Assembly: GCA_028275825.1 (NCBI GenBank)
Contig: JAPWTX010000015.1
Span: forward strand, 1-37,208
Origin: Ignisphaera sp.
GTDB taxonomy: Archaea > Thermoproteota > Thermoprotei_A > Sulfolobales > Ignisphaeraceae
Direction: 5' to 3'
DNA: 37,208 nt
A model generated the notes under the pieces. The model worked only from the letters and a program-made list of their open reading frames with translations, had not been told where the DNA came from and did no database searches. Below are positions 9,687-17,189 of this stretch, piece by piece. Each line of letters opens with the position of its first letter. Within the stretch, counting starts at the first letter, position 1. Made by a program: the position numbers and the translations under genes.

Positions 9687-10610
9687 ATGTTGATTAGGGT
9701 TATTAGAGGAATAGACTATGGACTTTCATTATATTACTCCTACACTCTCCCTCTTTATGATGTTAAGCCTGTTGACAATGGCTTTGTGTTTATAAAAACT
9801 GTTGGTCTATGTAAAGGGCTTGAATGTAGGTTTCAGAGGAGTTCTTTGGAAACAATTTGTGTTGTTCCGCAGTGTTGTGAGGGATATGCTGAAAAGCTCC
9901 TGGGCTTGGATTCTAGGTGGGGTTTTGAGGAGCTGTGTAGAGTTATTGGTTGGGGGAAGTGTATTTTGTCTAACATAACACTTCTCTATAGTCCTGGAGA
10001 TGCGGATCTCATTCTATATGCAATTCTCTTATCTAGAAACACAGATTATTTTACAAATACACTTCGTTGGTTTAAGCAGTTTGTGGATAGGGGTGTAGTT
10101 GAAGACAGAAGTTATATTCCTCAGCAAGTACTTATGCTAGCGCCTAAGGTAAAGAAGCTGTTTACAGATGCTAAGAATGCTAAAGACATTATTATCTCCC
10201 TTCTTACTCTAAAAGGTATTGGTGTAAAAAGTGTTACGGCTTTATTGCTTCACGCCTATGGAGAGACAGAATATGCCCCTGTAGATAGGCATTATAAGAG
10301 ATACTTAGAAGCTATATATGGAGAGCTGAGGGAGCCTATAAAGAAGATTTGCATAGCTACTAAACTGAACTGCTTAGTGTGTAAATATAAGGGCAAGTGT
10401 TTTTATGGTGTTGCAAGGAGTTTAGGAAAGTTAAATGGATATCTGCAATCTCTAACCTACCTTTCTGAAAGACTGAGCTTTGCCAGGAGTCGGTTTGAGG
10501 AAGTACTTGTTCCTAAGGATTATAGAGATGTAAAAGCTTTAAGGAAAGTAACAGCTTTAGCTATAGAGACTCTCACTAGAGAAGCTGGGCTACGGCATGC
10601 AAGGATATGA
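9687..10610 (+). CDS. HhH-GPD DNA glycosylase with [4Fe-4S] cluster
   Basis: Base-excision-repair glycosylase of the endonuclease III/AlkA superfamily, 307 residues. The helix-hairpin-helix is TLKGIGVKSVTA (174-185) with a lysine (K181) at the catalytic position of bifunctional glycosylase/lyases. The catalytic aspartate is D200 (YAPVDRHYKRYL). Cysteines at 222, 229, 232 and 238 give the exact C-x6-C-x2-C-x5-C spacing of the endonuclease III cluster. The N-terminal 110 residues resemble the AlkA/Ogg-type extra domain more than Nth, and carry several further cysteines (C42, C47, C58, C63, C64). Lesion specificity cannot be read from the sequence. The gene overlaps the next (radical SAM) by 14 bases, so the two are translated together. 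Confidence 0.85.
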   Translation: MLIRVIRGIDYGLSLYYSYTLPLYDVKPVDNGFVFIKTVGLCKGLECRFQRSSLETICVVPQCCEGYAEKLLGLDSRWGFEELCRVIGWGKCILSNITLLYSPGDADLILYAILLSRNTDYFTNTLRWFKQFVDRGVVEDRSYIPQQVLMLAPKVKKLFTDAKNAKDIIISLLTLKGIGVKSVTALLLHAYGETEYAPVDRHYKRYLEAIYGELREPIKKICIATKLNCLVCKYKGKCFYGVARSLGKLNGYLQSLTYLSERLSFARSRFEEVLVPKDYRDVKALRKVTALAIETLTREAGLRHARI

Positions 10611-11373
10611 CCCATTTCAGCTAGGGGAAGCTGTTAGGAGGTTTGTAACTAGAGCAGTTTTTGGAATTGAAGAGAGGAAGTACTATAGGTTTAGGGGTGG
10701 GAAGTGGTATGGTGGTATATCTACAGGAGACGTTGTTGGCTGCAATCTTAGATGCAAATTCTGCTGGAGCTGGAAATACACTCACACAACAGATAAGGGA
10801 GAATTCTATGATCCCAGCAAAGCATTTGAGAAAATGCATAGCATAGCTAAGGAGAGGGGTTATAGCTATGTGAGGATCAGCGGTGGCGAACCAACACTAT
10901 CATTTAACCACTTACTAGAACTTCTAAAGCTATTCAATGAAACAAATCTTACATTTATTTTAGAAACCAATGGGCTTTTGCTGGGAAAGGAAAAAAGCTA
11001 TGTAAAAGCGTTGGCAAATTACAATGTAGTTGTTAGAGTTTCTTTTAAGGGAGCCACAGAAGATGAGTTTGCTATACTAACAAGTGCAAGACCAGAATTC
11101 TATGAGTATCAGTTCAAAGCATTAGAAAACCTTGTGGAAGCAGGATTTAGACCAGGTGTGGATGTATATCCAGCAATAATGCTAAGCTTCAGCACGGATG
11201 AGAGCTACTCCAGATTCAAGGAAAGGCTAAGGAAAATAGATCCAAAATTCGCTGAAGCTATAGATGAAGAGTACGTAATTCTCTACCCACATGTGATAGA
11301 GATTCTCAAGAGAAACAAACTCAGACCCAGGATAGCCTTTACACCAGATAACATACCAACCTCAATGATTTAA
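10597..11373 (+). CDS. Radical SAM protein paired with the glycosylase
   Basis: A 258-residue radical SAM enzyme. The cluster motif is CNLRCKFC (C49, C53, C56), followed by RISGGEPTLSF (about 93-103), the SAM-binding GGEP motif. There is no C-terminal SPASM or TRAM domain, so it is a minimal enzyme. Sequences with GDVVGCNLRCKFCW are widespread in archaea but uncharacterised as far as I know. The ATG at 10597 lies inside the end of the glycosylase gene, 14 bases of overlap, a strong sign of an operon and possibly of linked function in nucleic acid modification or repair. Substrate unknown. Confidence 0.85.
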   Translation: MQGYDPFQLGEAVRRFVTRAVFGIEERKYYRFRGGKWYGGISTGDVVGCNLRCKFCWSWKYTHTTDKGEFYDPSKAFEKMHSIAKERGYSYVRISGGEPTLSFNHLLELLKLFNETNLTFILETNGLLLGKEKSYVKALANYNVVVRVSFKGATEDEFAILTSARPEFYEYQFKALENLVEAGFRPGVDVYPAIMLSFSTDESYSRFKERLRKIDPKFAEAIDEEYVILYPHVIEILKRNKLRPRIAFTPDNIPTSMI

Positions 11374-11413: not shown

Positions 11414-12853
11414 TTAGGGTGCTATGTTTCTATATCTGAATACATTATTTCTATATCTCATAGCTTTAGCTAATCTCTCTATAAGTAAATATACCTCTCC
11501 TTCATACACCTTCTGAAGATCTCTGTTCTCCATGTAATGCTCTACAAGTCTTTCTCTCAAGTATCTCTTCCCTTTTTCATCTCTCAAAACTTGGAACACA
11601 TAGAAATAATGTCTGAAGATATCAGTCCTTGGATCGCTACAGCATGTCACGCATTTTTCGTAAGTTTTGAGAAGGTTCTCTAACTCTGGAGAATATAGTG
11701 CTAGCCTTAATGAAACAACTTTTCTCAGATGCTCTATGACATCATAATATATTTCTTCATATAATCTCCTAGTTGCAGACCCCTTGGGGAACCTTGACAT
11801 TGTTTCTAGGAGTAATTGTATTAGAACTCCAGACATTTTGTACTTAACCATGCCCCTCAACGCCTCTCCAACAACACTCCACACCCCAAAACCTTTATCA
11901 CTGTACGGGTTGTGCCCACTGCCAGAGTGTATAGATATAAGTACGTTGTTTGAGTACAGAATTGTATGTATGTTCCTCAGATTCTCGTACAATTCTCTCA
12001 AGTCGCCATTGTAATCCTCTCGTTTTCTGAAACCTATATTTGGAGCTAGGAAATCTGGTTCTATACCCATTCTCTTCAGTTCATACACGTAGAAGAAAAC
12101 TTCATTAGGTGGCGAAACCTTGGGAGTCTCATCGAAGGCTATCTCGATTCCAAAAGGCTTGTCGTTATACTTCATTACTATGTCTAGCACCTTCTTCACG
12201 TATTCGAGGCTTTTACGGTACTTTAAAACAAGCCTAGCTAGCGTTGGTCTGCTGAACCTAAGTGTTAGTTGTCTATCGCTAGAAATGAATGTAAATGTTT
12301 TTTCAAGGTATCTCTCTTCCATCTCTCTTCTTTCATCAAATTCCACATTATTTTCATAGAACTCCACAACCTCTCTATCGCTTAATGTGTCTATGCTATA
12401 ATCTATGAGCTCACATGTATCTATGGTAACAAAATCCACTCCACCACTCTTCTTAACTTCGCTAAACTCCTCTTCAATGTAGGAAAGAGATGTGGCAATC
12501 TCATCATCGCTAATAGGCTTGGTCATAGGAACCCCTGCTATCTTCTTTAAAGCTCTCTCTACACTACCCATAATAGATACGTGGTCAGCCTCTATCTCTA
12601 TCACAGCTCCGAATGCCTCTCCGAATCTCCTACCCTTAGTTATATACTCTTCTATAGATGTCCCAGTATGGCCAAAGTATAGAAGATCCGGATTAGTAGA
12701 ATTAATGTAACTTGATGGAGCAGTTTCTCTATTGAATGAAAGCATTAACGTACCTGCAATACCAAGACTTTTAAACGCCTTTAGTATAGGAGGTATAACT
12801 ATGTCTGGTATTCTTACTCCAAATGCAGGTCTAGGTAGCTTACCTAAATACAT
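11414..12853 (-). CDS. UxaE-family tagaturonate/fructuronate epimerase-like protein
   Basis: 479 residues resembling the UxaE family (D-tagaturonate 3-epimerase to D-fructuronate in thermophiles such as Thermotoga). Supporting segments: EIEADHVS, then FVTIDTCELIDYSIDTLS (the FTIDP...DTLS region of the family), FGIEIAFDETP, LAPNIGFRKREDYNGDL, and the SIHSGSGHNPYS motif containing conserved His residues. An upstream start at 12985 would overlap the divergent gene; the ATG at 12853 has GGGGGT before it and a TATA-like box about 37 bases upstream. The N-terminus MYLGKLPRPAFGVR looks natural. It shares a divergent promoter with the TIM-barrel gene, suggesting common control. Members on other ketoses are possible, so the substrate is inferred. 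Confidence 0.72.
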   Translation of the reverse strand: MYLGKLPRPAFGVRIPDIVIPPILKAFKSLGIAGTLMLSFNRETAPSSYINSTNPDLLYFGHTGTSIEEYITKGRRFGEAFGAVIEIEADHVSIMGSVERALKKIAGVPMTKPISDDEIATSLSYIEEEFSEVKKSGGVDFVTIDTCELIDYSIDTLSDREVVEFYENNVEFDERREMEERYLEKTFTFISSDRQLTLRFSRPTLARLVLKYRKSLEYVKKVLDIVMKYNDKPFGIEIAFDETPKVSPPNEVFFYVYELKRMGIEPDFLAPNIGFRKREDYNGDLRELYENLRNIHTILYSNNVLISIHSGSGHNPYSDKGFGVWSVVGEALRGMVKYKMSGVLIQLLLETMSRFPKGSATRRLYEEIYYDVIEHLRKVVSLRLALYSPELENLLKTYEKCVTCCSDPRTDIFRHYFYVFQVLRDEKGKRYLRERLVEHYMENRDLQKVYEGEVYLLIERLAKAMRYRNNVFRYRNIAP

Positions 12854-12884
12854 TAAAACCCCCACACCACTGTCAGTAGAGAAA

Positions 12885-12901
12885 AATTTAAATATTTTTA
12901 A
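12885..12901. promoter_or_regulatory. Divergent TATA-like region for the sugar-acid cluster
   Basis: AAATTTAAATATTTTTAA lies between the UxaE-like gene (minus, ATG 12853) and the TIM-barrel gene (plus, TTG 12970). The minus-strand reading gives a TATA box centred about 37 bases from that ATG. The sequence is nearly symmetric and could serve both directions. The same AAAATTTAAATA word precedes the transaldolase-like gene at 13947. Confidence 0.5.
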
Positions 12902-12969
12902 CCTTGTATTCTTCTGAAAGGTGAAACAAAATACTGTATGGCTATCTAAAGAAGGGAAATGTTGAGATA

Positions 12970-13857
12970 TTGGCGAGGTTCCCATGGGACATAGGAATAA
13001 TAAGTTTTATGGTGTTTCCAGAGCTCATGAGATCTTCGGAAGGAGCAGCTGATAAGATAAGGGTTCTGCTTGAAGATCCTTACTTTGATTTACTCGAAGT
13101 TATGATAATAGATGATGGTGAGTGGAGAAAGATAAGTGAGCTAAATAGAGTTTATGGCAAGAAGTTCGCATTAGGACTACAACCAGTTGTCTTGACACGT
13201 GGGGTAAATCCTAGCGCAATTAATGAAGATGAGAGAAAGAAGAGTGTTGAGATTCTGATTAAAGAGGTTAGGGTAGCTGGAGAAAGAGGCTATAGAGCTG
13301 TTGGAATATGTTCTGGTCCAAATGTTGAAGGACCTGAAAGGGAAAGGGCTAAGGAGGCTCTAATTAAAAGCCTTGTAGAACTTGGTGCAGAGGCTGCAAA
13401 ATATGGTATGAATGTATATCTAGAGACATTTGATGTGGCATGGGATAGAAAGAGGTTGGCTGGATATTTTGAAGAGACAGCTAAAATCATTGAAAAGGTG
13501 AGGGAACAGGCAAAGAATGTCTACATAATGTGGGACTTGAGCCATGCACCACTACTAAACGAATCTCCAGAAAAGCTCAGATCATATCCAGAGCTTGTTG
13601 GACACATACATATAGGTTGCGCAAAGAAGGCTGGAGATAAGCTTCTAGATACTCACCCAGGGTTCTACAGACCTGGAGCACTCAACACAGAAGTTGATGT
13701 AGCGAAGCTTCTCACAACCTTAAGCGATATAGGCTATAGGGGCGCTATAAGCTTTGAGGTCAGACCTGAAGAAGGTCAACATCCACTAGAAGTAGTAAAC
13801 TCTTCTAAAGGTGTACTACTGAGAGCTTTTCAACTATTTCTAGAGTCTCGGATATAG
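12970..13857 (+). CDS. Xylose-isomerase-like TIM-barrel isomerase/epimerase
   Basis: 295 residues of the AP-endonuclease-2/xylose-isomerase TIM-barrel superfamily, which includes hydroxypyruvate isomerase, tagatose 3-epimerase and inosose dehydratase. Likely metal ligands: E152 (VYLETFD), D189 with H192 (MWDLSH), H212/H214 (GHIHIG) and E263 (ISFEVRPE). No other domain. The start is TTG at 12970, since no ATG or GTG lies in frame upstream; TTG starts are common here. It overlaps nothing once the opposite gene is trimmed. The neighbours suggest a role on a ketose or on tartronate semialdehyde (hydroxypyruvate isomerase activity). The specific reaction is inference. Confidence 0.8.
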   Translation: MARFPWDIGIISFMVFPELMRSSEGAADKIRVLLEDPYFDLLEVMIIDDGEWRKISELNRVYGKKFALGLQPVVLTRGVNPSAINEDERKKSVEILIKEVRVAGERGYRAVGICSGPNVEGPERERAKEALIKSLVELGAEAAKYGMNVYLETFDVAWDRKRLAGYFEETAKIIEKVREQAKNVYIMWDLSHAPLLNESPEKLRSYPELVGHIHIGCAKKAGDKLLDTHPGFYRPGALNTEVDVAKLLTTLSDIGYRGAISFEVRPEEGQHPLEVVNSSKGVLLRAFQLFLESRI

Positions 13858-13946
13858 CTATATACCTCCATAACCATACAATTTTAACCAACTAATATCG
13901 TTTTTTATATATTTCTATATATACTAGTAATGGTCTTCATATAAAG

Positions 13947-13960
13947 AAAATTTAAATAGT
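13947..13960 (+). promoter_or_regulatory. TATA-like box for the transaldolase-like gene
   Basis: AAAATTTAAATAGT, centred about 28 bases before TTG 13982 and 55 before TTG 14009. Transcription would start near 13980. The motif is the same as in the 12885 divergent promoter, so shared regulation is possible, although it may just be a generic BRE/TATA. Confidence 0.5.
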
Positions 13961-14008
13961 ACTAGCAAATATAAGCCCTATTTGTGGGGCTATATAGGTG
14001 AATTTCGA

Positions 14009-16156
14009 TTGGATTCAAAGGTCGTAAAAGAAGAAGTTGTTAAAATAATAAAAAGTGCAGAAATAGAGAAACTTGTCATACCTATTCCTCCAAGAATAGA
14101 TCATGCTGATCACATAATGAAGACAGCTTTAATGGGTTGGACAAAGCTTGCAGCTGATCACATACTTCACCCCGAGTTTGTTAAGATAGCTAGGGAAGTG
14201 TTTTCAGCGCTTGTTAGAAGGATTGAGCATGTGTTGAAGAGTGAGGGTGTTCTAGATTCTAGTGGAAAGCTTATAGAGTCAGCTGTTGTGAAAAGGGCGA
14301 GGATTTATGACACTATCTTTGAGATAATATTTAATCTGGGTGGTGTTGAGAGTAAGTGGGCTGGGTATAGTGAGGAGGATGCCGAGAACTATATAAGGTA
14401 TTTAGTGAATGCATTTGATTACTGGGAGTCTCTAGAAAGAGAAGAGCTTGGCTATCCAGTAATTGTTGAGTCTGTAGTAGAGTTGCAACTCAATGAGTTA
14501 ATGAAGGTTAACAAAGGTAAGAGCCTTGTAGCTACCATAGCGCAGGAGGTCTCTAAAAAACTTGATAAAAGCTCTATTGTTAAAAGCTATGTAAATGCAA
14601 TGCTTAGCGAGATAAAGAATATTTTTTACAGAAAGGTGTATGAAGAAGGCATGTGTAAGTTTGGAAATGACTATGCACTAGGTTTGAGATTCCTAAGGCA
14701 CTTAGGCTTTGTACAAGTTTCAACCAATCCACCTCTAGCAGCCACAGCATACAATGATGATCCTGAACTTCTCGAAAAATTCAGGAAATATGCTTCAGAG
14801 GTTTTGATCAAGGAACATCCTGAGTGGTTTGAAAACCCTGAGAAATACGCTGACGACATAGCTATGGAGGCAACGAGATTTGCTCTCATGGACAATTTCT
14901 ATGTATTTAGGGTACCATTCATACTCTCAAAATATCATGATGGTTTAGTTAGCTACCAGCTAAACCCACTTTTTGCACATGATGCAAAGAAGAGTGTTGA
15001 AGATGTGAAGGTGTTTGTCTCTAGACTTGAAAGAGATCTTGCTGTTTACGATGAGTATCTGTGGTGGGGCTTTAACGTCCCTGAAAAAGGTAGAGCAGAT
15101 CTTGTTGTAAAGGTCTCAGCCGCTTATCCAGCTGCGATGGAGATAGCTGAAAAGATAAATGAGATGGGTGTAGGCCAGAATATTACTGTTAGCTTTACGG
15201 TATCGCAAGAGGTTTTAATAGCGTATGCCGCTCTGAAGGGTATGGCAAAGGCTATTAGAAAGGGTATAATACCTTCTCAAACCTATGATACTAACATGGG
15301 TGGTAGATTAGAAGATCATCTAAGAGAAGAGACCGCAACGCAACTCCTATTAAAAGCTCTTGAAGCAGTTGACGAAGCTAAGAGGTTTAGTGTTCTTGAA
15401 AAGCTTGCAAAGGGCTTGGGGGTTAAGGAGGATGCTTGGAATAAGGTTAAGAAGCAGGATTTCAAATCTATTGCAAGCTTCTTGTGTAGTAGAAGAGTCT
15501 TAGGCAGAAATCTGCTGAGAGAACCCTTCATAGATGCACTTGTCGAGTTAGGGCTATACAGATCTAGAGAAGATGGATTGCAGCATTTGAAGCCTTTAGA
15601 AGATGCATTAAAGCTTTCAGGTACTTTTGTTGCGCAGAGAGTTTATGAAATACTTTTCGCTCCCTGGAACAGGGAGAAGTGGATAAATCACTTCATCAAA
15701 GAATTTGGCTTAACGAGAGAAGAGGCAGAGATTGTGCTGGATAGAATAGATTTGCTACCAGCATCAAAGAGAAAACCCATAGACACTCTCTACACCTTTG
15801 CCTCAAGAAATATGACGAACACAGAATTTCCAGATCACCAACTGAATGTCGTTAAGGAGGTTGCAGAAAAAGGAGTCAAATTAGAGGATCTAAAGGAGTC
15901 TATATACCAGTCATTACCTAGAAAATACCTTGAAATACTGCTTCAATTAGAAGACTTTGTTAAAGCTTATGAAGCTTCGCCTGAAGTCAATGAGCTTCTA
16001 AAGAATGTTGGCATAGATAGAGACTATGGGAATAGGGGTGTATCTCCAAAGGACTGGCCTTCTTATGGGCCAAGCAAGAAGACTATGGACGAATTTAGCC
16101 ATGAATACATAGTGTTTAGAGAAAAAGTAGTAACGTTATTTAAGAGGCAGAGATAA
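14009..16156 (+). CDS. Very long transaldolase-like protein
   Basis: About 715 residues, more than twice a normal transaldolase (about 220-350). The transaldolase barrel is recognisable in the middle (numbered from TTG 13982): VQVSTNPPLAATAYN (245-259) resembles the TNP loop, SYQLNPLFAHD (324-334) resembles the VDPR strand, VVKVSAAYPAAMEIAE (375-390) carries the probable Schiff-base lysine K377, then NITVSFTVSQE (400-410), and GGRLEDHL (440-447) resembles the GRIDD ending. About 240 N-terminal and 260 C-terminal residues are unassigned. TTG 14009 has AGGTGA seven bases before it; TTG 13982 (leaderless) is the alternative. It lies between the TIM-barrel isomerase and the reductase. It probably transfers or cleaves a three-carbon ketol unit; the substrate is unknown. 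Confidence 0.75.
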   Translation: MDSKVVKEEVVKIIKSAEIEKLVIPIPPRIDHADHIMKTALMGWTKLAADHILHPEFVKIAREVFSALVRRIEHVLKSEGVLDSSGKLIESAVVKRARIYDTIFEIIFNLGGVESKWAGYSEEDAENYIRYLVNAFDYWESLEREELGYPVIVESVVELQLNELMKVNKGKSLVATIAQEVSKKLDKSSIVKSYVNAMLSEIKNIFYRKVYEEGMCKFGNDYALGLRFLRHLGFVQVSTNPPLAATAYNDDPELLEKFRKYASEVLIKEHPEWFENPEKYADDIAMEATRFALMDNFYVFRVPFILSKYHDGLVSYQLNPLFAHDAKKSVEDVKVFVSRLERDLAVYDEYLWWGFNVPEKGRADLVVKVSAAYPAAMEIAEKINEMGVGQNITVSFTVSQEVLIAYAALKGMAKAIRKGIIPSQTYDTNMGGRLEDHLREETATQLLLKALEAVDEAKRFSVLEKLAKGLGVKEDAWNKVKKQDFKSIASFLCSRRVLGRNLLREPFIDALVELGLYRSREDGLQHLKPLEDALKLSGTFVAQRVYEILFAPWNREKWINHFIKEFGLTREEAEIVLDRIDLLPASKRKPIDTLYTFASRNMTNTEFPDHQLNVVKEVAEKGVKLEDLKESIYQSLPRKYLEILLQLEDFVKAYEASPEVNELLKNVGIDRDYGNRGVSPKDWPSYGPSKKTMDEFSHEYIVFREKVVTLFKRQR

Positions 16157-16181
16157 TAAGTAATATGTGGTGTTGTGTGTA

Positions 16182-17189
16182 ATGAGGCCCAAACTGTTTG
16201 TTACTAGAGAGCTATTCACAGATGTGATAGAAAAATTGAAGAAGTATTACGATGTAGAAGTATGGGATAGGTATCAACCACCACCATATGAAACACTATT
16301 AGAGAAGGTGAAGGAAGTAGATGCCCTTGCTTCTCTGCTAAGCGATAGAATAGATTGCAACTTGCTTCAACAGGCAAAGAGGCTTAGAATAGTTGCACAG
16401 TATGCTGTAGGCTATGATAATATAGATGTGGAGTGCGCTACTAGGCTGGGGATATATGTTACAAACACCCCAGGGGTTTTAACAGAGGCAACAGCTGAGC
16501 TTACATGGGCTTTAATACTAGCTGTTGCTAGGAGGATTGTAGAGGCAGATACATTTGTTAGATGGGGTGAGTGGTGGAGAACTAAAACAGGCTGGCATCC
16601 ACACATGATGCTTGGTCTAGAGCTTAAGGGGAAAACACTTGGTATCGTGGGTTTAGGGAGAATAGGATCTAGAGTTGCTGAGATAGGCAAGGCCTTTGGC
16701 ATGAAGATAATATATTACGATCCTAGCAGAAATGAGGCTTTGGAGAAGCAGTTAGGTGTTGAATATAGGGATCTTGATACCTTGCTGCAAGAAGCCGATA
16801 TAGTGTCAATACATGTTCCGCTAACAAAGGAGACTTATCATCTTATTAATGAGGAGAAGCTGAGAAAGATGAAGAGAACAGCATTGCTAATCAACACAGC
16901 TAGAGGGGCTGTAATAGACATAAACGCATTAGTCAAAGCACTTTCAGAGGGTTGGATAGCAGGTGTAGGGTTAGATGTGTTTGAGCAAGAGCCTCTACCT
17001 CCAAATCATCCACTAACAGCATTCAAAAACGCTGTTCTTGTACCACACATAGGCTCGGCAACATATGATGCAAGACATGCAATGGCAGAGCTTGTAGCTG
17101 AAAACCTAATTGCTTTCTATGAAGGCAGAGAACCGCCAACACTAGTAAACAAAGATGTTTTGAAAGTAAGATCTCCAGGTTTCAAATAA
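16182..17189 (+). CDS. gyaR: Glyoxylate/hydroxypyruvate reductase, D-2-hydroxyacid dehydrogenase family
   Basis: NAD(P)H-dependent reductase of the archaeal GyaR type, 335 residues from the ATG at 16182. That start is chosen over the GTG at 16167 because GGTG lies upstream and RPKLFVTREL is the normal N-terminus. Nucleotide-binding GIVGLGRIGSRVAEIGKAFG; catalytic Arg in NTARGAVID, Glu in DVFEQEPLPPNHPL, and His in VPHIGSAT. The family reduces glyoxylate to glycolate and hydroxypyruvate to D-glycerate. It sits 25 bases after the transaldolase-like gene, likely in the same transcript. Here the hydroxypyruvate activity would complete the proposed route. Other D-2-hydroxyacids cannot be excluded. 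Confidence 0.85.
   Translation: MRPKLFVTRELFTDVIEKLKKYYDVEVWDRYQPPPYETLLEKVKEVDALASLLSDRIDCNLLQQAKRLRIVAQYAVGYDNIDVECATRLGIYVTNTPGVLTEATAELTWALILAVARRIVEADTFVRWGEWWRTKTGWHPHMMLGLELKGKTLGIVGLGRIGSRVAEIGKAFGMKIIYYDPSRNEALEKQLGVEYRDLDTLLQEADIVSIHVPLTKETYHLINEEKLRKMKRTALLINTARGAVIDINALVKALSEGWIAGVGLDVFEQEPLPPNHPLTAFKNAVLVPHIGSATYDARHAMAELVAENLIAFYEGREPPTLVNKDVLKVRSPGFK

Follow-up and report, generated by a model that had tools for sequence, protein, structure and literature searches.

What might an unusually large transaldolase-family protein do in an archaeon where its gene lies beside those of a sugar acid epimerase and reductase? The question is raised by a 37,208-nucleotide stretch (contig JAPWTX010000015.1, contig 25 in our numbering and hereafter the window) of the 1.81 Mb genome of an Ignisphaera-like hyperthermophile (Thermoproteota). 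Here four neighbouring genes encode a UxaE-family tagaturonate/fructuronate epimerase (11414-12853, minus strand), a xylose-isomerase-like TIM-barrel isomerase/epimerase (12931-13857, plus strand; TIM below), a large transaldolase-family protein with a proposed role in the C3-C4 cleavage of fructuronate (13982-16156, plus strand; TAL below) and the glyoxylate/hydroxypyruvate reductase GyaR (16167-17189, plus strand). We consider it fairly probable that these genes serve an archaeal degradation of hexuronates, in relatives also of myo-inositol, which proceeds via cleavage by a transaldolase-fold enzyme and does without the 2-keto-3-deoxygluconate (KDG) branch. With slightly less confidence we favour a complete pathway for hexuronates and myo-inositol in about a tenth of the sampled Thermoproteota, whose arms would meet at D-fructuronate; this would be cut by a large class I family (a fructuronate transaldolase/aldolase) and its carboxylated half turned into D-glycerate. 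The proposal builds on protein families, on genes that lie together and co-occur, on the lack of the classic enzymes, on a modelled fold and on a conserved active site; every substrate and product is inferred from these.

Co-occurrence of the four genes

The four open reading frames (ORFs) of the original prediction are present and were assigned to the same families, with Pfam or NCBIfam scores above the respective cut-offs. Specifically, the UxaE ORF (11414-12985, minus strand) scored 107.9 bits with PF16257 (cut-off 27.1), the TIM ORF (12970-13857, plus strand) 77.3 bits with PF01261 (cut-off 31.1), TAL 35.8 bits with PF00923 (TAL_FSA; cut-off 27) and GyaR 610.8 bits with the NCBIfam glyoxylate reductase model NF009714 (cut-off 455). 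The NCBIfam scan gave no family name for the UxaE protein. GyaR falls in the 2-hydroxyacid dehydrogenase family of Pfam, and the solved glyoxylate reductases 6bii, 5aov and 2dbq match it at E ~1e-126.

We compared 60 relatives and a wider sample of 398 Thermoproteota genomes; Fisher p-values are uncorrected for kinship and are used as a guide only. The association of the four genes is real and not a matter of chance, since TAL and UxaE co-occur across the phylum: TAL is found in 53 and UxaE in 38 of the 398 genomes, and 35 carry both (p 2e-33). Counted by family, TAL is also present in 14 of the 15 families with UxaE. Among the 60 relatives each gene is found in 14 genomes, and 12, the window's own included, have both (p 4e-9). 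In the Thermoproteota sample a UxaC-like gene and TAL occur together in 27 of 31 genomes (p 4e-23), and UxaE and/or UxaC-like genes are carried by 44 of the 53 genomes with TAL. The original prediction had proposed a search for the same neighbourhood elsewhere, and genes for UxaE, TAL, a GyaR-like reductase and TIM are indeed clustered in two further genomes, G277 and G374 (G, L and C numbers denote genomes, loci and contigs of the window's own genome, respectively).

The absence of mannonate dehydratase, first noted at the locus, is borne out and extends well beyond it. Neither UxuA (PF03786) nor the UxuB/UxaB domain (PF08125, Mannitol_dh_C) was detected in the window's genome or in any of the 60 relatives, and both searches were positive in the Escherichia coli, Bacillus subtilis and Thermotoga maritima controls.

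Predicted fold and active site of TAL

TAL is 724 amino acids long, about twice the usual length of a transaldolase, and has extra helical domains. A single-sequence search of the PDB returned nothing at E<=1, and a profile of 38 sequences was needed for an alignment. The AlphaFold (AF2) model has a predicted local distance difference test (pLDDT) score of 94 and a predicted template modelling (pTM) score of 0.91, and a Foldseek search with it matched 36 PDB entries at E<=0.001, of which one is named "an aldolase" and the others transaldolase.

Conservation in 53 TAL sequences points to a predicted active site of D230, N249, Q326, K377, N400, T402, R442, S595 and R597 (gene on the plus strand). 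D230, K377, N400, T402, R442, S595 and R597 are invariant; N249 is found in 52 of the 53, the remaining one being unread. K377 aligns with the Schiff-base lysine of the PDB transaldolases, and the Asp, Asn and Thr that go with it are in place. The transaldolase-specific Glu (E96 of TalB) is lacking: all 53 sequences have Q326 opposite the catalytic Glu of 3r5e and 3clm. Of the residues that hold the catalytic water in FsaA (Gln59, Thr109 and Tyr131), TAL has the Gln and the Thr, and a motif alignment suggests that Met439 probably takes the position of FSA Tyr131 and of the TalB Phe. By strand order, S595-K-R597 would lie on strand 7, where TalB has its phosphate-binding Ser and Arg.

Cleavage of fructuronate between C3 and C4 would follow established transaldolase chemistry and yield a dihydroxyacetone unit and OHC-CHOH-COO-, i.e., tartronate semialdehyde. 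The best reading of the TAL sequence is that the enzyme cleaves fructuronate to tartronate semialdehyde. This part of the predicted transaldolase step is supported. The dihydroxyacetone unit may be transferred to glyceraldehyde 3-phosphate (GAP), as predicted, or may be released, because Gln326 replaces the Glu and because an exchange of the residues around the catalytic water is reported to turn aldolase into transaldolase activity and vice versa (PMC13259622). DeoC-type aldolase genes near TAL in seven genomes and GlpK-like genes in three are compatible with either outcome.

In one genome (G012; L029:3872-6160 and L030:1-1404) two highly diverged TAL copies, ~28% identical over the barrel, are present on separate contigs; they keep the motif QISLQLNP and still adjoin UxaE and TIM.

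The proposed pathway and its neighbouring genes

In the proposed pathway a GH2 beta-glucuronidase (GUS) would cut glucuronides, and a UxaC-like enzyme would convert the glucuronate to D-fructuronate. D-Tagaturonate would come either from galacturonate or, by way of IolG-IolM-IolN-IolO, from inositol, and would be epimerised to D-fructuronate by the UxaE-family enzyme. As the glucuronide and inositol feeds thus converge on fructuronate, TAL would be the common next enzyme: a Schiff base would form at Lys377, the C3-C4 bond would be broken and C4-C6 would leave as tartronate semialdehyde, the dihydroxyacetone unit either being passed to GAP, giving fructose 6-phosphate, or leaving free. TIM would isomerise tartronate semialdehyde to hydroxypyruvate, GyaR would reduce this to D-glycerate, and a glycerate 2-kinase would form 2-phosphoglycerate.

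ORFs around TAL were clustered and then named using hidden Markov models. Six Ignisphaera genomes have a GUS gene (451 bits, cut-off 544) next to TAL or close to it, and all seven copies that reach the motif region have NRK at the position of the NxK uronate-binding motif of beta-glucuronidases such as E. coli GUS. A UxaC-like uronate isomerase gene is found near TAL in four Ignisphaera genomes; with 35.5 bits against NF002794 (cut-off 387), an E of 5.6e-9 over residues 6-425 and a retained DxHxHL motif, the protein is, judged by its sequence, a remote full-length UxaC homologue. In Ignisphaera aggregans a glycerate 2-kinase gene (338 bits, cut-off 670) adjoins TAL, and four genomes from a different family (G064, G072, G107 and G132) have a glycerate kinase gene in the vicinity of TAL. 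Only such adjacency was counted, because 43 of the 60 relatives have a glycerate kinase anyway, and presence alone was dropped as evidence. In the window's own genome the genes for GUS, the UxaC-like protein and glycerate kinase are on contigs C33, C27 and C21, respectively. A further UxaC-like copy in that genome (G000:C8:18904-19371) is truncated and contains a TGA in frame.

Characterised UxaE converts D-tagaturonate to D-fructuronate (PMC6353982). The UxaE structures 9lhw and 6ilb match the window's protein at ~1e-12 and have the DET and SIHSGS motifs in common with it; its closest solved structure is 9kcs, named "ISOMERASE" (E 1.5e-118, residues 45-516). The window's UxaE may act on uronates and not on fructose or tagatose. 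The UxaE relative of I. aggregans (L027:7514-8966) is broken by a frameshift and by a stop codon in frame, and the adjoining TAL, TIM and glycerate 2-kinase genes are intact, as are the reading frames of the glucuronidase and the reductase; moreover, two genomes without UxaE (G003 and G005) retain TAL and TIM. Since UxaE can thus be broken or absent where TAL and TIM persist, the data fit a UxaE that feeds the tagaturonate branch only.

Support for the inositol arm comes from G277 (L109) and G374 (L096), where one cluster holds genes for IolG, IolM, IolN, an IolO-like TIM barrel, UxaE, TAL, a GyaR-like protein and a window-type TIM. All four Iol steps are present in G277, G374 and G019, and part of them in G038. 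Representative proteins from related genomes scored 532 bits for IolM (cut-off 450), 341 for IolG (355), 237 for IolN (245) and 225 for IolO (300); the NCBIfam name for the IolO step is 5-keto-L-gluconate epimerase. According to Rodionova et al. of 2013, a study cited in PMC3750489, the Thermotoga inositol pathway ends at D-tagaturonate. A cyclophilin-like gene (PF04126) recurs in inositol/UxaE clusters (L109:13623-14069, L096:12190-12918, L050:13214-13951 and L052:4241-4969).

For TIM we propose a candidate role as the tartronate semialdehyde/hydroxypyruvate isomerase, because the pathway needs an isomerase step between TAL and GyaR. Its metal-site residues E152, D189, H214 and E263 are invariant in 19 sequences. 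An identity with IolO was tried and rejected, given a score of 40.7 bits with NF041099 (cut-off 300) and a tree in which the window-type TIM proteins form a clade of their own, separate from IolO; both types are co-resident in G019, G374 and G012.

Taken together, a hexuronate/fructuronate route that cleaves at C3-C4 and leads to glycerate, as predicted, is supported by GUS with NRK, the UxaC-like, glycerate 2-kinase and IolG-IolM-IolN-IolO neighbours, and the lack of UxuA, UxuB and UxaB in the 60 relatives.

Points against the pathway and alternative explanations

A number of observations weigh against this pathway. In TAL, the invariant Gln326 in place of the transaldolase Glu and the probable Met439 leave the acid-base chemistry unclear, and to our knowledge no TAL of this family has a known activity. 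The structure closest to the window's UxaE, 9kcs, may be the fructose/tagatose 4-epimerase Thar-T4Ease. TIM scored 39.5 bits with the hydroxypyruvate isomerase model TIGR03234, below its cut-off of 353, and its closest folds are ketose 3-epimerases, with E. coli 1k77 ranking lower; the family named in the original prediction holds, and hydroxypyruvate isomerase is a candidate function. For KDG kinase and KDG/2-keto-3-deoxy-6-phosphogluconate (KDPG) aldolase the analysis covered gene neighbourhoods only, the classic isomerase pathway being judged by UxuA and UxuB/UxaB. For I. aggregans, growth on galactose and lactose is reported and growth on uronates is not (PMC3035270). Several family f35 genomes have TAL beside a CTP synthase gene (named by eye from the sequence), with UxaE elsewhere. 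Finally, both UxaE and a close UxaC-like gene are lacking in nine of the 53 genomes with TAL, and in five of these (G229, G246, G272, G278 and G313) TAL is beside a DeoC-type aldolase gene, some with GH53 galactanase/GH42 genes as well.

Because DeoC-type aldolase and GH53/GH42 genes adjoin TAL in that sub-clade, the enzyme may act there on another ketose; this sub-clade, with galactan/galactoside genes nearby, probably uses neutral sugars, and at the DeoC/GH53-associated loci the pathway may exist in a form for neutral sugars. The hexuronate substrate of the original prediction may thus not hold in every lineage. A DeoC/LacD-type aldolase gene adjoins TAL at L094:1648-2481, L095:8142-8948 and L097:10590-11423, in some cases together with genes for an IolO-like TIM barrel and for a GH53 galactanase.

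As a sub-version of the pathway that does not exclude it, TAL could be an aldolase yielding tartronate semialdehyde and free dihydroxyacetone, which a glycerol/dihydroxyacetone kinase would then phosphorylate; we judge this somewhat unlikely. The water-residue swaps cited above and Gln326 fit such an enzyme, as does a GlpK-like FGGY kinase gene near TAL in three genomes from three families (G251, G252 and G321), but no GlpK gene was seen beside TAL in Ignisphaera, the probable Met439 at the FSA Tyr131 position would keep FSA chemistry only in part, and the invariant R442 with S595/R597 resembles the phosphate site of transaldolases, as expected for a phosphorylated acceptor. That UxaE-like proteins and TAL act on fructose and tagatose, fructose giving glyceraldehyde and a dihydroxyacetone unit and glyceraldehyde being oxidised to glycerate, with the uronate genes as mere neighbours, appears unlikely to us. 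It would accord with 9kcs as the nearest solved relative, with the tagatose 4-epimerase described from Thermoprotei (PMC12042125), with the sugars on which I. aggregans grows and with GH53/GH42 and IolO/psicose-epimerase-like TIM genes near TAL in other clades. However, it leaves unexplained the NRK of GUS, the UxaC-like gene, the IolG-IolM-IolN-IolO clusters and a hydroxypyruvate reductase gene 10 bp from TAL, and the association of UxaE, UxaC and TAL extends over many families.

Non-orthologous replacements are frequent in archaea, and a KDG-type route with unrecognised dehydratases and reductases, TAL having some other role nearby, could draw on the DHDPS-family genes near TAL in G073, G080 and G252 and on the restriction of the KDG kinase and aldolase analysis to gene neighbourhoods. 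We nevertheless find it quite unlikely, given that UxuA and Mannitol_dh_C are missing from all 60 relatives and that, of the C-C cleaving families found here, TAL alone tracks UxaE and UxaC across families. Very improbable, in our estimate, is that TAL is the missing transaldolase of the non-oxidative pentose phosphate pathway and has no uronate role. The PF00923 family and the transaldolase fold would suit this, and Transketolase_N is found in 31 of the 60 relatives, among them the TAL-bearing Ignisphaera genomes; yet transketolase accompanies TAL in 11 of 14 TAL genomes (p 0.018), which is weak compared with UxaE (12 of 14), none was seen beside TAL, which has genes of uronate, inositol and glycerate metabolism around it, and the transaldolase Glu is missing. 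The fructuronate-cleaving pathway can be tested directly in I. aggregans, since this type strain is in culture, its genome is finished and it has the glucuronate branch.

Gene starts, promoter-like boxes and flanking genes

UxaE probably starts at Met45 (~12853), since the alignments with 9kcs and with most relatives begin only near that residue. The start of TIM is probably ~13 residues upstream of 12970 (at 12931), because its relatives begin MLYGY. In the window (12931-12970), ATA CTG TAT stands where the relatives start, and ATG, GTG and TTG seem to be lacking at that position, so that TIM would begin at ATA/CTG or with the TTG of 12970. UxaE and TIM diverge from a short region with an archaeal box resembling a transcription factor B recognition element (BRE) and TATA box, GAAAAATTTAAATAT (12881-12895), and a box of the same form, GAAAATTTAAATAG, is found upstream of TAL (13946-13959, plus strand); both were read from the sequence and are presumed to act as promoter elements. 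A sigma-70 promoter scan gave matches no more frequent than in shuffled sequence. TAL and GyaR are separated by 10 bp and are probably co-transcribed. On its other side UxaE adjoins a gene pair (9687-11373) encoding a 307-residue protein without family match and a radical SAM protein, which is kept in G004 and G006.

Relation to known systems

If the pathway is correct, it adds a further route for the breakdown of uronic acids and inositol, would explain glucuronide use by hot-spring archaea that lack mannonate dehydratase and fructuronate reductase, brings to light an uncharacterised family of 700-residue transaldolase-fold proteins in 53 sampled Thermoproteota genomes and offers a source of heat-stable uronate-converting enzymes. 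The open-access literature searched gave no description of a route combining fructuronate, a transaldolase and tartronate semialdehyde, and a 2019 review of hexuronate metabolism makes no mention of transaldolase (PMC6353982).

TAL shares with TalB transaldolase and FsaA the class I barrel, the Schiff-base Lys and the supporting Asp, Asn and Thr positions; it differs in length, in a long insertion that separates strand 6 from strand 7, in an N-terminal helical domain and in having an invariant Gln for the transaldolase Glu and, probably, a Met for the FSA Tyr. Thar-T4Ease, the tagatose 4-epimerase from a Thermoprotei archaeon that is possibly 9kcs, converts fructose to tagatose; it was assayed on fructose, and its native substrate is not shown there (PMC12042125). 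With the bacterial isomerase pathway (UxaC-UxaB/UxuB-UxaA/UxuA-KdgK-KdgA) and Thermotoga UxaE the archaeal genes share uronate isomerisation and the UxaE link between tagaturonate and fructuronate (PMC6353982), whereas transaldolase-family cleavage would here replace reduction, dehydration and KDG aldol cleavage. The genes of the Thermotoga myo-inositol pathway (IolG-IolM-IolN-IolO to D-tagaturonate) are shared by the relatives named above and do not lie beside the window's four genes; the archaeal version would continue via UxaE and TAL to glycerate.

The closest parallel in logic, as the original prediction had recognised, is transaldolase sulfoglycolysis (sulfo-TAL; SqvA/SftT), in which a PF00923 enzyme likewise cuts a ketose with an anionic C6 group between C3 and C4, passes the glycerone unit to GAP and releases a C3 anionic aldehyde (PMC9594981). 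TAL is a remote member of the family, matching BmSF-TAL at only E 0.56, and is not an SftT/SqvA orthologue by this comparison. Relative to the sulfo-TAL logic, the TAL-based uronate route is likely new in its substrate and in the fate of its C3 product: it would act in archaea, with a 724-residue TAL, on a carboxylate instead of a sulfonate, and would recycle the C3 product to glycerate, carrying the transaldolase principle of sulfoglycolysis over to carboxylated sugars.

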